From: an uncultured Treponema sp.
GTDB lineage: Bacteria; Spirochaetota; Spirochaetia; Treponematales; Treponemataceae
Direction of reading: 5' to 3'
Assembly (NCBI GenBank): GCA_947174385.1
Contig: CAMWIU010000010.1
Location: 1 to 32,012, forward strand
DNA length: 32,012 nt
The notes beneath the pieces were generated by a model. It saw only the letters and a list, made by a program, of their open reading frames with translations, did not search any database and had not been told where the DNA came from. The translations under genes were made by a program, and so were the position numbers. Positions 6,816-17,825 of the stretch are shown here, one piece after another. Positions within the stretch are counted from its first letter, which is position 1, and each line of letters starts with the position of its first letter.

Positions 6816-6993
6816 AATTTCCTCCATAGGTTGAAAACGTTTTGTGAATAATTTTTCATTCACAACTAATATTTTAAGGGCGTTCCGCAAAAATTGGTAT
6901 AGTCATTTTGTTACCAATGTTGCAAAAATACTATCATTTTGTTCGGTTTCCAAACATAAAGAATGAATTTGCGAAATTTTGAAAATTTTTCGC

Positions 6994-7021
6994 TTGCGTT
7001 TTCAAAAAAATATTGTATCAT
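6994..7021 (+). promoter_or_regulatory. Candidate sigma-70 promoter for the FGGY kinase
   Basis: TTGCGT (6994-6999), 16 nt, TATCAT (7016-7021). The -10 end is only 8 nt upstream of the 7029 ATG, so either a near-leaderless transcript or the match is fortuitous. Confidence 0.4.
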
Positions 7022-7028
7022 TTTAATT

Positions 7029-8636
7029 ATGGAAAACAGCAAAATCACGCAAGAAATTTCGGAAGGAAAAGCAGTTTTGGGAATCGAGCTAGGCTCGACA
7101 AGGATAAAGGCCGTCCTCATCGATTCGGAAATGAATCCGGTGGCTTCGGGCGATTTCAGTTGGGAAAGCGTCCTTTCCGACGGAATTTGGACTTACTCTA
7201 TGGAAGAAATCCATTCGGGCGTAAAGGCGGCGTATTCCGCGCTCAAAAAGGACGTTGCGCAGAAATTCGGCGTAAAGCTTTCCCGGCTCAAGGCGATGGG
7301 AATCAGCGCGATGATGCACGGATATTTGGCGTTCGACAAAAACGGGCGGCTTTTGGTTCCGTTCCGCACTTGGCGAAACACGATCACGGCGCAGGCTTCA
7401 AAGGAACTCACGGATTTGTTCAATTTTCCGATTCCCGAGCGATGGAGCATCGCGCATTTTTACCAGGCGATTTTAAATGGCGAAGAGCATGTCGCGCAAG
7501 TCGATTATTTTACGACGCTCGCGGGCTACATTCATCAAATTCTTTGCGGGGAAAAAGTGCTCGGCGTGGGCGACGCGAGCGGAATGTTTCCAGTGGATAT
7601 GGATGCGTGTTCTTACGACAAAAAAATGCTCGACCTTTTCAACGCGAACAAAAAGGTGAAGGCCGCGATTTCGCGCCCGCTGGAAAGCCTTTTGCCGAAA
7701 GTTTTGCCGGCGGGAAAATCGGGCGGAAATCTTACGAAAGAAGGCGCGATTTGGCTCGATCCCGAAGGCGACCTTGAGCCGGGCGTTTTGCTCGCGCCTC
7801 CCGAAGGCGACGCTGGAACTGGAATGGCGGCAACGAACGCAGTTTCTCCGCGAACTGGAAACATAAGCTCAGGCACTTCGGTTTTCGCGATGGTGGTTTT
7901 GGAAAAGCCGCTTTACAAGGCATATCCCGGCGTAATTGACATTGTTGCCACTCCCGACGGAAAGCCCACGGCGATGGTTCACGTGAACACTTGCACGGCG
8001 GAATACAATAAATGGGTTTCGATTTTCGGCGAGGCCGCGAAAATCTTGGGCGCGCAATTCGGAACAGGTCAGCTTTACGACAGCATTTTGGGATGCGCCA
8101 AGGACGGCGAAAAAGATTGCGGCGGCGTTTATTCGCTCGGATACATTTCGGGCGAAAGCGTCACGGGATTTTCCGAAGGGCGGCCGATTGTCGTGCGCTC
8201 GCAGGATTGCAATTTCACTTTGCAGAATTTCATCCGAAGCCAAATCTATTCTGCCGTGGCGACGCTTCGCATCGGAATGGACGTGCTTTTTGAAGGCGAA
8301 AAAGTTCAAATTGATTCGCTCACAGGGCACGGCGGATTTTTCAAGACGGAAGGCGTGGGGCTTGAAGTGATGGCGGCCGCGATGCACACTCCGATTTCCG
8401 CGATGGAGACGGCAGGCGAGGGCGGCCCTTGGGGAATGGCTTTGCTCGCTTCTTATTCTGCGGACACGAAATCGAAGAGCCTTGGCGAATGGCTTTCGAG
8501 CGAAGTTTTTTCTTCCGCGAAAATCCGCACGGTTCGCCCTGATCCTGCGGACGAAGAAGGCTTTAACAAATGGCTTTGCGGCTACAAGGAAACTCTCAAA
8601 GTAGAACGCGCCGCAGTCGAGAATCTGAAATTCTAG
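7029..8636 (+). CDS. FGGY-family carbohydrate kinase (ribulokinase/xylulokinase-like)
   Basis: VLGIELGSTRIKAVLID N-terminal and GHGGFFKTEGVGLEVMAAAMHTPISAMETAGEGGPWGMALLASY C-terminal FGGY motifs. Confidence 0.9.
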   Translation: MENSKITQEISEGKAVLGIELGSTRIKAVLIDSEMNPVASGDFSWESVLSDGIWTYSMEEIHSGVKAAYSALKKDVAQKFGVKLSRLKAMGISAMMHGYLAFDKNGRLLVPFRTWRNTITAQASKELTDLFNFPIPERWSIAHFYQAILNGEEHVAQVDYFTTLAGYIHQILCGEKVLGVGDASGMFPVDMDACSYDKKMLDLFNANKKVKAAISRPLESLLPKVLPAGKSGGNLTKEGAIWLDPEGDLEPGVLLAPPEGDAGTGMAATNAVSPRTGNISSGTSVFAMVVLEKPLYKAYPGVIDIVATPDGKPTAMVHVNTCTAEYNKWVSIFGEAAKILGAQFGTGQLYDSILGCAKDGEKDCGGVYSLGYISGESVTGFSEGRPIVVRSQDCNFTLQNFIRSQIYSAVATLRIGMDVLFEGEKVQIDSLTGHGGFFKTEGVGLEVMAAAMHTPISAMETAGEGGPWGMALLASYSADTKSKSLGEWLSSEVFSSAKIRTVRPDPADEEGFNKWLCGYKETLKVERAAVENLKF

Positions 8637-8651
8637 ATTTTTTGAAAAAAA

Positions 8652-8836
8652 CGCGCTGCAAAACAGCGCGGCGTTTTATTAGGAGATATGATAAAAAGTT
8701 GCCTGAAATGTCGTCAACTTTTTATCATGACAAGTTTCCGTTGGAAACTTGCATATCAAATGCCACTTCTCATTTCATTACGAAGTGGCATAAAAAGTCA
8801 AGAAAGAAAGTTGCAACTTTCTTCTTGACTTTTTAT
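8652..8836. repeat. Array of five consecutive hairpins in the kinase-araD intergenic region
   Basis: CGCGCTG/CAGCGCG 8652-8670; ATGATAAAAAGTTG 8688-8701/CAACTTTTTATCAT 8715-8728; CAAGTTTCC 8731-8739/GGAAACTTG 8743-8751; TGCCACTTC 8761-8769/GAAGTGGCA 8782-8790; AAAAAGTCAAGAAAGAAAGTTG/CAACTTTCTTCTTGACTTTTT approx 8792-8834 with one bulge. Confidence 0.85.
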
Positions 8837-8849
8837 AGGAGAAAATGCT

Positions 8850-9566
8850 ATGTCAAAATATTCCGAATTGAAACAGCAGGCTTACGAAGCGAACATGCAA
8901 ATCCCGGCTCAGCATCTCGCGCTTTATACTTGGGGCAACGTGAGCGCGTTCGACAAGGACGCGGCCGTTTTCGCAATCAAGCCGAGCGGAGTTCCTTATC
9001 CTGAACTTTCTGCCGAAAGCATGGTCATTGTCGATGTGGAAGGAAATATTGTGGAAGGAAAATTGCGCCCTTCAAGCGACACGCCGACCCACGCCGTTTT
9101 GTACAAGGAATTCGCGCTTTGCGACGGCGCAAAAATCGGCGGAATAATCCACACGCATTCGACGTTCGCCGTGAGCTGGGCGCAGGCCGTCCGCGAGATT
9201 CCGCTTTTCGGAACGACGCATGCCGACCACATTCAGACGGCAGTTCCGTGCACTCCGTACCTTTCCCGCGAAGCCGTCCAAAACGATTACGAAAAGGAAA
9301 CGGGAAATCTAATCGTGAGCCATTTCCGCGAGCGCAAGCTCAATCCCGAAGAAGTGACGATGGTTTTGGTGGGCGGACACGGGCCTTTCGCGTGGGGCGG
9401 CACTGCCGAAAAATCAGTCTACAACGCCGCCGTGCTTGAGGAAGTGGCGCACATGGCGATGAACACGCTGCAAATCCGCGCGGAGCAAAAGCCGCTTCCG
9501 GACTACATCATCGAAAAGCACTATTCGCGAAAGCACGGCCCGAACGCATATTACGGACAAAAATAA
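8850..9566 (+). CDS. araD: L-ribulose-5-phosphate 4-epimerase (class II aldolase family)
   Basis: LALYTWGNVSAFD, IKPSGVPY, GIIHTHSTFAVSWAQA, GTTHADHIQTAVPCTPYL, and VGGHGPFAWG motifs of AraD-type epimerases; AGGAG RBS upstream. Confidence 0.93.
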   Translation: MSKYSELKQQAYEANMQIPAQHLALYTWGNVSAFDKDAAVFAIKPSGVPYPELSAESMVIVDVEGNIVEGKLRPSSDTPTHAVLYKEFALCDGAKIGGIIHTHSTFAVSWAQAVREIPLFGTTHADHIQTAVPCTPYLSREAVQNDYEKETGNLIVSHFRERKLNPEEVTMVLVGGHGPFAWGGTAEKSVYNAAVLEEVAHMAMNTLQIRAEQKPLPDYIIEKHYSRKHGPNAYYGQK

Positions 9567-12614: not shown

Positions 12615-13649
12615 ATGAAGCGAGTTGCGCTGGGTTTAGCAATGTTTTGCTTGATTTTTTGTACACGAGCATTCGCAGAAATAAAATACATAGAGATAAA
12701 AGATGTTTCGAATGTTTCTGAAATTGAATTTTCAAATTTAAGCGACTTTGAAAAATTTGCCGTGGGCGACATTTTCTTTTGCAAAAAGACTTCGAAATCC
12801 TATGTACTTGTCGGCGGCACTTATTATTCCTACAATTTGCAAGGCTATAAAACTGTGGCGGATTTTAAAGCTGGAAGCAACTACAAAAATGCGATTGATT
12901 ATTATGAATCCGTCGAGCAAAAAATCCCAGACGCGGAACGTTTTTATTTTTACAAGTCAAATCATTTTGCGAACGGTGCTGACGCTTTGGATGCATGGGC
13001 GAACGGTTGGGGCGAGAAATTTGAGCGTGCCAATTATGCTAGATTTGAAGATGAAGAAATTTATCTTGGCTCGCCGATTTCCAATTTGTATTATTCTGCC
13101 AAACAATATGGAATCAACACTTTATCGGAATGCGTTGAACTTCTTTTTTTGCAAAAGCATGAATTCGAATCAATGGAAATTTACAGAATCGCAAAGTCCA
13201 AAGGATTTAAAGAAAATTCGGATTATCAAAGCGCAATCGCAAAAGGCTTTGAAACAAAAGAAGTTTGGGACGCTGCTAGAAAATTGAATCTTGCAAATGC
13301 CAGTGAATATCAAAATTATATTGCGTTTGTCGCAGAAATCGGAAATAAAATTGACGAAAAAGATTTTACGAAAGAAGCCGCAGTGGTTTATCATTATATT
13401 GCTAAAGTTTCAAAAGATAATTATTCGCTCGAAAAACTGATTGAAAATTGCAATAGTCAAATGAAAAATGAGAATGCGAATGTAAAACTTGCGATAGAAA
13501 AATATGTCGAAAAAAAAGTTGATTATTACAAAAACAGTTTTGAAAAAATGGAAAATTATTTGAGTAATTCGCTTGTTTTGAGAATCATAGAGAATTCAAA
13601 GGAACTCGGAAAATACAATGAAAAGAATGATGTGTTCAACAAGAAATAA
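12615..13649 (+). CDS. Secreted protein of unknown function
   Basis: AAGGAGG RBS; signal peptide MKRVALGLAMFCLIFCTRAFA; no family recognised; AT-rich. Confidence 0.75.
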   Translation: MKRVALGLAMFCLIFCTRAFAEIKYIEIKDVSNVSEIEFSNLSDFEKFAVGDIFFCKKTSKSYVLVGGTYYSYNLQGYKTVADFKAGSNYKNAIDYYESVEQKIPDAERFYFYKSNHFANGADALDAWANGWGEKFERANYARFEDEEIYLGSPISNLYYSAKQYGINTLSECVELLFLQKHEFESMEIYRIAKSKGFKENSDYQSAIAKGFETKEVWDAARKLNLANASEYQNYIAFVAEIGNKIDEKDFTKEAAVVYHYIAKVSKDNYSLEKLIENCNSQMKNENANVKLAIEKYVEKKVDYYKNSFEKMENYLSNSLVLRIIENSKELGKYNEKNDVFNKK

Positions 13650-13707
13650 AAATTGCGCTGAAAATTTTTGGCGAAATTTTTAACAAGAAATATAAATTGA
13701 AATGAAA

Positions 13708-13731
13708 AAAGCCTCGTAAAAACGAGGCTTT
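13708..13731. terminator. Bidirectional intrinsic terminator between convergent genes
   Basis: AAAGCCTCG-taaaaa-CGAGGCTTT with A tract on the left and T-rich sequence on the right. Confidence 0.85.
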
Positions 13732-13770
13732 AAAATTTTTTGCGCTGTAGTTAGAATTTTGAATCTGAAA

Positions 13771-14772
13771 TTAGCCAAGCAATTCTTTCAAAGCATTTAT
13801 GGCGGCTTCTTTTTTTGCCTCTTTTTTTGTGGTTCGCTTGCCACAAAAATACTTGTCGAAAGATTCTAAATCAATTTTGCAAATCCAAAAATGCTCATTT
13901 GTTTCTTCATCAAATCCTTCTTCCCAAATGTATTTCGGCTCGTCAATCCAATTGTGTTGATATAATTCTTGAAGTTGACTGACTGGGTTTTCGTGATTTA
14001 TTTTGTCTACTATACGATTTTTCATATATTCACGTTCGAATGCTTCGCATGCTTTTTTTGCGGCTTCCATTTTGGCTTCAAACGCGGTATTTCCCGTAGA
14101 TTTAAATTTAAGAGGTGGATATGGGCATAGGGAGCGGTGAAGGGTCAATGTGCAAGTATAAGTAACACCACCAAGATACATGAGTGTTAAAAAAGAATCA
14201 TCGGAAAGGATATATGGACTTTTATGGCAATAATCTTGAAGACGCCGAATATAATTTTCCGCATATTTTCCAGCACCCAGCATTGTGGTGCACACGGGAA
14301 AAATTTTTTCAAAATTCCAATTTGAATCAATGGCGACCGCGCCAAGAATTGCTTCAAACAAATCCTCTGCCACCGTCGCTTTGTTCCGAACTTCGTTGCT
14401 TTCGTCGCTTTTGCCCAAACGCAAGTAGGATTCAAGACCAAGATTCCAAATGCATTTTGACAGCATTTCAGTATCAGAATAATATGAAAACAATTTTGAA
14501 AGTTCGCCTTCATTCTTTTGCGAAAAATAATATTTTTGCACTAGAGAATAAGATTGCCTTTGTTCTTTTGCAAAAGATTGCTCAAACCATTTTGTCAAAT
14601 AAATTGACAAAACCTTGTCCCCATAAAATTCCAATACTTCATTGTCAGCACATTCGGAATGCTCGTTCGCGTAAGAACGTCGAGTGAACGCTTGTTCAAG
14701 AAGTTTTTGGTTGCTGAAAGAATATCCAATTTTGGATTGAATATCCTCGCCATTGAAATTTTTGTTTTCCAT
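13771..14772 (-). CDS. RNase III-family protein with catalytic domain and two dsRBD-like domains
   Basis: DNEVLEFYGDKVLS (E45, E48, D52) and ATVAEDLFEAILGAV (D137, E140) keep canonical RNase III acidic residues; C-terminal dsRBD PVSQLQELYQ...GKRTTKKEAKKEAAINALKEL; middle segment ending KSTGNTAFEAKMEAAKKACEAF resembles a second dsRBD. Confidence 0.88.
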   Translation of the reverse strand: MENKNFNGEDIQSKIGYSFSNQKLLEQAFTRRSYANEHSECADNEVLEFYGDKVLSIYLTKWFEQSFAKEQRQSYSLVQKYYFSQKNEGELSKLFSYYSDTEMLSKCIWNLGLESYLRLGKSDESNEVRNKATVAEDLFEAILGAVAIDSNWNFEKIFPVCTTMLGAGKYAENYIRRLQDYCHKSPYILSDDSFLTLMYLGGVTYTCTLTLHRSLCPYPPLKFKSTGNTAFEAKMEAAKKACEAFEREYMKNRIVDKINHENPVSQLQELYQHNWIDEPKYIWEEGFDEETNEHFWICKIDLESFDKYFCGKRTTKKEAKKEAAINALKELLG

Positions 14773-14997
14773 AAAGTCCTCCTAAAGTTTTTAAGAGGCA
14801 CAATCATCGTGCGCAATCGAGAAGATTTTTTGGCGGATGATTAACAAAATAGAAAAATTAAAAATCAATATCGTAGAAAACCACAGCGCAATAATCAACG
14901 ATAATAAAAGTTAATCAAAATATTTTGTCTTTCGTGCCTTTTTTTCAGCATAATATAATTTTGTGTTTCTGTCAAGAAGTTTTGTTATGATATTTTC

Positions 14998-15089
14998 TTA
15001 TGGAATAAATATACTTGTGAATATGTAAAACTGTTGACTTTTTGCGAGATTTCAAATAGAATGGGATTTGTAAGGTATATTTATACTTT
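14998..15089 (+). repeat. 92-bp promoter-bearing repeat, copy 2
   Basis: See copy 1 (12493-12584); -35 at 15034-15039, -10 at 15057-15062. Confidence 0.95.
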
Positions 15090-17737: not shown

Positions 17738-17825
17738 TAAAACTCGGCATTAAAATTGGCGGCGCAAATTAGTCGTCAATTTTAATTGCTTGAAAAAATT
17801 GTTCCGCAACAAAGTGAGAAAAAAT
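17738..17825. repeat. Second copy of the window-start hairpin element
   Basis: AAAACTCGGCATTAAAATTGGCGGC-gcaaatta-GTCGTCAATTTTAATTG parallels AAAACTCGTCATTAAAATAGGCAAC-gccatttta-GTTGCCTATTTTAATTG at 61-110; followed by TGAAAAA...GCAAC..AGTGAgAAAAA resembling 3-33. Confidence 0.75.

Follow-up and report, generated by a model that had tools for sequence, protein, structure and literature searches.

A family of four-hairpin, probably mobile elements found directly ahead of start codons in Treponema

The window analysed here is a stretch of 32,012 nucleotides from an uncultured Treponema sp. (assembly GCA_947174385.1, contig CAMWIU010000010.1, positions 1 to 32,012 of the forward strand), in which a gene for an FGGY carbohydrate kinase (6963..8636, plus strand; PF02782 and PF00370) is followed on the same strand by a gene for a class II aldolase of the AraD type (8850..9566; PF00596, E 6.9e-40), whose nearest relatives in the genome collection come from gut and rumen Treponema and Spirochaetia assemblies. 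In the spacer, a preliminary description made from the letters alone had listed five consecutive stems of 7, 14, 9, 9-10 and ~21 bp, and all five are where it put them, on the plus strand: hairpin 1 (8652-8658/8664-8670, 7 bp), which is terminator-like, and four that are named here A (the second of the five; 8688-8701/8715-8728, a perfect 14 bp), B (the third; 8731-8739/8743-8751, 9 bp), C (the fourth; 8760-8769/8782-8791, 10 bp) and D (the fifth; 8790-8836, 15 bp, a bulge and a further 6-7 bp). The 14-bp stem and the last stem do share arm sequence (ATAAAAAGT/ACTTTTTAT), as had been pointed out, which makes alternative pairing possible. The folding energy is extreme both for RNA (8637-8849, z = -8.3) and for DNA (8680-8845, z = -11.4), none of 200 dinucleotide shuffles reaching the observed value in either case.

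The stems exist, but they are not a single array, as comparison with a close relative makes clear. In Treponema sp. Mgla_MAG (genome G161, apparently identical to G103; locus L070), which encodes an aldolase 100% identical in protein sequence to that of the window, the spacer reads ...GCGGCGTTTTGAAAATTTTTTAGGAGAAAGTGCTATG, with an equivalent of hairpin 1 and hairpins 2-5 wholly absent, while the window has at that place TATGATAAAAAG...CTTTTTA between ...GCGGCGTTTTATTAGGAGA and TAGGAGAAAATGCTATG. Hairpin 1 is therefore host sequence, and hairpins A to D (8687..8836, ends uncertain by 1-2 bases) are an insertion, flanked on both sides by TAGGAGA. The left copy of this duplicated target (8680..8686) is itself similar to a Shine-Dalgarno (SD) sequence, and the right copy (8836..8842) is the present SD of the aldolase gene, 7 nt ahead of the ATG at 8850; in the relative, a ~96% identical genome, the same site is empty and has a single SD.

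When the other loci of the same genome were compared with ~600 kb of G161, three clean empty sites with one SD emerged, that is, the site in the window, L012 ahead of rpmA (empty ATATTGGGAGAAATAAAATGGG; filled ATATTGGGAGATA...TTTTTATGGGGGAAATAGAATGGG) and L019 ahead of dnaN (empty TTTTTTTTAGGAGTTTAAAATG; filled TTTTTTTTTAGGAGTT...TTTTTTTCTAGGAGTTTAAAATG). At L017 the insertion fell between SD and ATG and a second SD came along with it; hence the target need not be the SD motif itself. Some copies (L011 and the first one in L013) are common to both genomes, and of the second copy in L013 only the right arm of hairpin D is left in G161. Collinearity between the window and contig C14 of G161 breaks near 1100, 9570, 12620-15000 and 19250, the pieces mapping far apart on C14, which reflects either rearrangements or assembly errors.

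Target duplication shows in flank statistics as well. In a set of 67 copies, the two flanks of one and the same copy have a mean longest common substring of 6.63, versus 5.25 +/- 0.14 when flanks are permuted (500 permutations, maximum 5.82), and the test repeated on 20 copies from other genera gives 6.3 versus 5.06 +/- 0.25, which none of 1000 permutations reaches. The clearest duplications are those with non-standard SDs on both flanks (ATCGAGGAAAAT, ATTAGGGGAT, GGGAGGAAAGAT). The length of the duplication is variable, and its exact value is uncertain and partly confounded because the left end of the element (e.g. ATGATAAAA) looks like many gene starts. At L177 (1425-1640) an exceptionally long flanking repeat (GGAGTAGCAGATGAAAACT) extends into hairpin A, the other arm of which shows the matching change; this may be a chance likeness or an arm copied from the target. 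In other genomes, a CGCTAACGCGGAGTTTT-like stretch recurs directly upstream of many insertions (left flanks of L041, L044, L059, L069 and L139); it may be a terminator of a common type or a further repeat.

The inserted sequence belongs to a dispersed family with an element length of ~155 bases and dozens of copies per genome, which bears out an earlier suggestion that the spacer might hold a composite repeat and contradicts the possibility, also raised, that relatives would have it only as unique decaying sequence. The genome-wide search for further arrays that had been proposed yields, in the genome of the window, 60 matches to the stretch itself (partial and inverted ones included) and 72 by covariance model (weak and inverted ones included). 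This model was built on hairpins B, C and D only, since the stem of hairpin A varies in length and is misaligned in a MAFFT alignment of all four hairpins. Of the 146 same-genus genomes searched with it, 67 contain the family and 26 carry at least ten copies (copy numbers per genome are lower bounds in this screen and reach at least 26). Several further genera of the family-level group have it as well, among them genomes of 2.5-3.4 Mb that are complete as a single contig. Beyond that group there is one weak model match (G249), and searches of plasmid, phage and viral collections returned no match to the element. A divergent subfamily (type II) with the same four-hairpin plan is also present in the genome of the window (L037, L227-L231, L233-L237 and L239-L245), mostly away from SDs.

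In several complete or near-complete genomes, copies are arranged head-to-tail in tandem, with a period that equals the element plus an SD (154 nt in G186, 152 in G221, 165 in G276, 174 and 191 in G266). The array in G186 (L249, G186:C3:305317-305889) precedes an IMP-dehydrogenase-like gene, which was recognised by eye, and one of its units has exchanged both arms of hairpin D but kept A, B and C nearly as they were. Insertion into the element's own right-hand SD would be expected to build such arrays, as would unequal recombination. Arrays of element plus SD were also seen in G225. Parts of the element occur alone as well, either a solo hairpin A between two SDs or a solo right arm of hairpin D ahead of an SD (L020:352-394, L024:1543-1586, L025:1558-1603, L027:199-243, L032:6550-6593; L026:1483-1526, L035, L036 and L038), and these are probably deletion derivatives.

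Across loci of many genomes the element lies in sense orientation and ends in an SD followed by a start codon. By a strict pattern (G[GA]AG or GAGG, 2-10 nt, ATG), an SD with its start codon stands directly 3' of 79 out of 93 copies, versus 2.7% of random positions. Eight exceptions to a looser SD test were listed: in L135, L144 and L030 a further copy of the element follows the SD; other exceptions are L034, where this is probably the case too, and L037, L229 and L230, which belong to the divergent subfamily. The downstream genes in the genome of the window, which encode ribosomal protein L27, DNA polymerase III beta, an acyl transferase, a class I lysyl-tRNA synthetase, transketolase, lactate/malate dehydrogenase, isocitrate/isopropylmalate dehydrogenase and a sodium:alanine symporter among others, have no function in common.

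In our view the stretch 8687-8836 is probably a copy of a mobile DNA element, non-autonomous and of the BOX/MITE kind, that targets SD sequences. The element would insert in sense orientation, at or just behind the AGGAG-like SD of protein genes, and would duplicate roughly 6-10 bases including the SD, so that one SD remains by the start codon. It would move through a DNA form, single-stranded or cruciform, in which the hairpins are recognised, by means of an enzyme presumably supplied in trans. The position at SDs could partly reflect survival instead of targeting and, in its strongest form, this argument would have the element landing broadly, the copies at SDs being the survivors because the SD is regenerated beside the start codon. 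Type II copies, which share the architecture and occupy many places that are not SDs, are in keeping with such broad landing. However, type I copies are scarcely found at a distance of 20-100 nt upstream of genes, where they should do no harm, and survival of host genes leaves unexplained the tandem insertion at the element's own SD, which makes this explanation unlikely.

The pairing of the stems is conserved almost perfectly. Over four helices (the first in hairpin B, the second in C, the third and fourth in D), standard pairs occupy 98.8% of cells in 98 distinct copies, 29 of 31 pairs show double changes and there are 480 double-change cells versus 117 in shuffles, in an alignment that was fitted to the model and hence somewhat favours pairing; shifting the partner by one column brings pairing down to ~50%. 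When pairing is maintained in RNA, G.U is expected to be much commoner than A.C. The stems of the element have 30 G.T cells and 23 A.C cells, whereas 22 tRNAs from the same two genomes have 36 and 0, although the tRNA finder may itself disfavour A.C. As an A.C mismatch appears as G.T on the complementary strand, this parity suggests that selection or correction works on DNA, and points to pairing being maintained at the DNA rather than the RNA level. The hairpins may be recognised as folded single strands or cruciforms, or the palindromes may be corrected by template switching.

These numbers bear directly on one of the readings first offered for this spacer, that it may be an RNA regulator. 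If the element were a cis-acting leader RNA (an attenuator, a regulator or a stabiliser of mRNA) that selection has maintained, and spread, because it controls the downstream gene, its sense orientation immediately ahead of start codons, its strong structure with covariation and the terminator-like look of hairpins A and D would all be accounted for. Yet the genes that follow it are unrelated and share no pathway, it is missing at the same gene in the ~96% identical genome, no Rfam family matches the window and G.T is no commoner than A.C. Moreover, the element contains no conserved ORF: the one that starts at the left SD and ATG is 5-53 codons long, for which reason a role of this SD and ATG as an upstream ORF or attenuator was rejected. 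Regulation is hence distinctly unlikely as the primary nature of the element, and the copy in the window most likely resembles a regulator of an arabinose gene without being one. The element may nonetheless affect the downstream gene, for instance through transcriptional attenuation by hairpins A and D, which resemble terminators in sequence.

For translation, a mobile element at the SD would probably be nearly neutral. In RNA folding predictions (n = 61), the probability that the SD is unpaired is 0.49 with the element, 0.38 at a virtual empty site and 0.30 with a shuffled element, which suggests that the SD is shielded rather than hidden, and at least as accessible as predicted for the empty site. 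Because the hairpins would fold on themselves and the SD would stay open, insertion would be tolerated, which would explain the occurrence of the element at housekeeping genes such as dnaN and rpmA.

Which enzyme might move the element was addressed by relating four enzyme families to its copy number over the 146 genomes. Y1_Tnp shows no association (8 of 26 high-copy versus 32 of 120 other genomes, p = 0.64), nor does RVT_1, a reverse transcriptase (p = 0.81), and the latter was dropped as a partner on this ground; Transposase_mut (p = 0.15) was dropped because its association is not significant, and DDE_Tnp_1 because its p value of 0.056 is borderline and the family is found neither in the genome of the window nor in G103, apparently the close relative (both drafts). 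None of the four families occurs in the genome of the window; this is a draft of 87% completeness, and copies may persist after their enzyme is lost. We recognised no autonomous copy, and no parent IS or transposon among the four families screened. A REP-like origin, with movement by an HUH Y1 transposase (RAYT or IS200-type) that recognises GGAG plus a hairpin, had been suggested by a weak association in the first 24 same-genus genomes, and the GGAG-like motif next to a hairpin and the DNA-level pairing fit it. It is nevertheless very improbable, since the association vanished in 146 genomes, the element does not regularly flank RAYT loci and it has a target duplication, which is not generally expected of Y1 elements. 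Least credible of all, and almost certainly wrong, is an ordinary cluster of transcription terminators, such as has been proposed for hairpin clusters in bacteria including Treponema denticola (PMC8355165): hairpin 1 is terminator-like, but the close relative lacks hairpins 2-5 at this site, and elsewhere they precede the start codons of genes unrelated to one another instead of following stop codons.

The SD-targeting mobile element has its nearest described kind, by analogy, in BOX of Streptococcus pneumoniae, a modular MITE-like repeat with multiple stems (PMC3049150). Both are small, dispersed, multi-stem repeats with target duplication, modules, solo modules and arrays, a likeness of architecture only; BOX has other stems and no reported preference for SDs, whereas the element has no excess of G.U and lies in sense directly ahead of start codons. 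With MITEs it shares a length below 200 bp, the lack of a gene of its own, many dispersed copies, AT-rich ends and duplication of the target site on insertion. It differs from them in its inner hairpins B and C, conserved with covariation, and in the targeting of SDs, and perhaps also in its termini, where the inverted repeats (ATAAAAAGT) are merely short and imperfect and lie within hairpins A and D; no parent IS was found. REP/RAYT elements and other IS200-IS605 derivatives resemble it in their GGAG-like motif by a hairpin, their palindromes conserved as DNA and their extragenic position; it differs from them in its target duplication, SD placement, four hairpins and lack of association with Y1 transposases. 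A literature search (open-access and hence incomplete) returned no SD-targeted MITE, no MITE in Treponema and no description of this family, so that near-exclusive targeting of SDs and stem pairing without an excess of G.U would appear to be what is new relative to BOX.

A broader proposal, which we make tentatively, is that these elements make up a class of mobile 5'-leader cassettes, family-wide in Treponema, the hairpins of which are read as folded single-stranded DNA by a recombinase that chooses ribosome-binding sites; the SD being duplicated, housekeeping genes would tolerate insertion, and arrays would arise by targeting of the cassette's own SD. If SD targeting is real, this would be an unusual way for a parasite to spare its host, by landing in ribosome-binding sites yet leaving a working SD, and it would place near-identical structured leaders before dozens of genes that have nothing in common, some of them housekeeping genes. 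With G.U nearly absent amid hundreds of compensatory changes, recognition of hairpins at the DNA level or correction of palindromes during replication becomes open to testing. In more practical terms, copies of the element confound the prediction of leader RNAs and terminators in Treponema.

Two further places in the window had been linked to the spacer in the preliminary description, 1-110 and 17738. The first is indeed related, as a truncated type II member on the minus strand at the contig end (10..110), with a model match at 10-67 and its first hairpin recognised by sequence; the second (17738-17790) goes unreported by the model and resembles, by eye only, the first hairpin of type II in reverse. 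Elsewhere in the genome, the type II copy L231 has a 9-bp repeat (AGGAACGTT) on each side.
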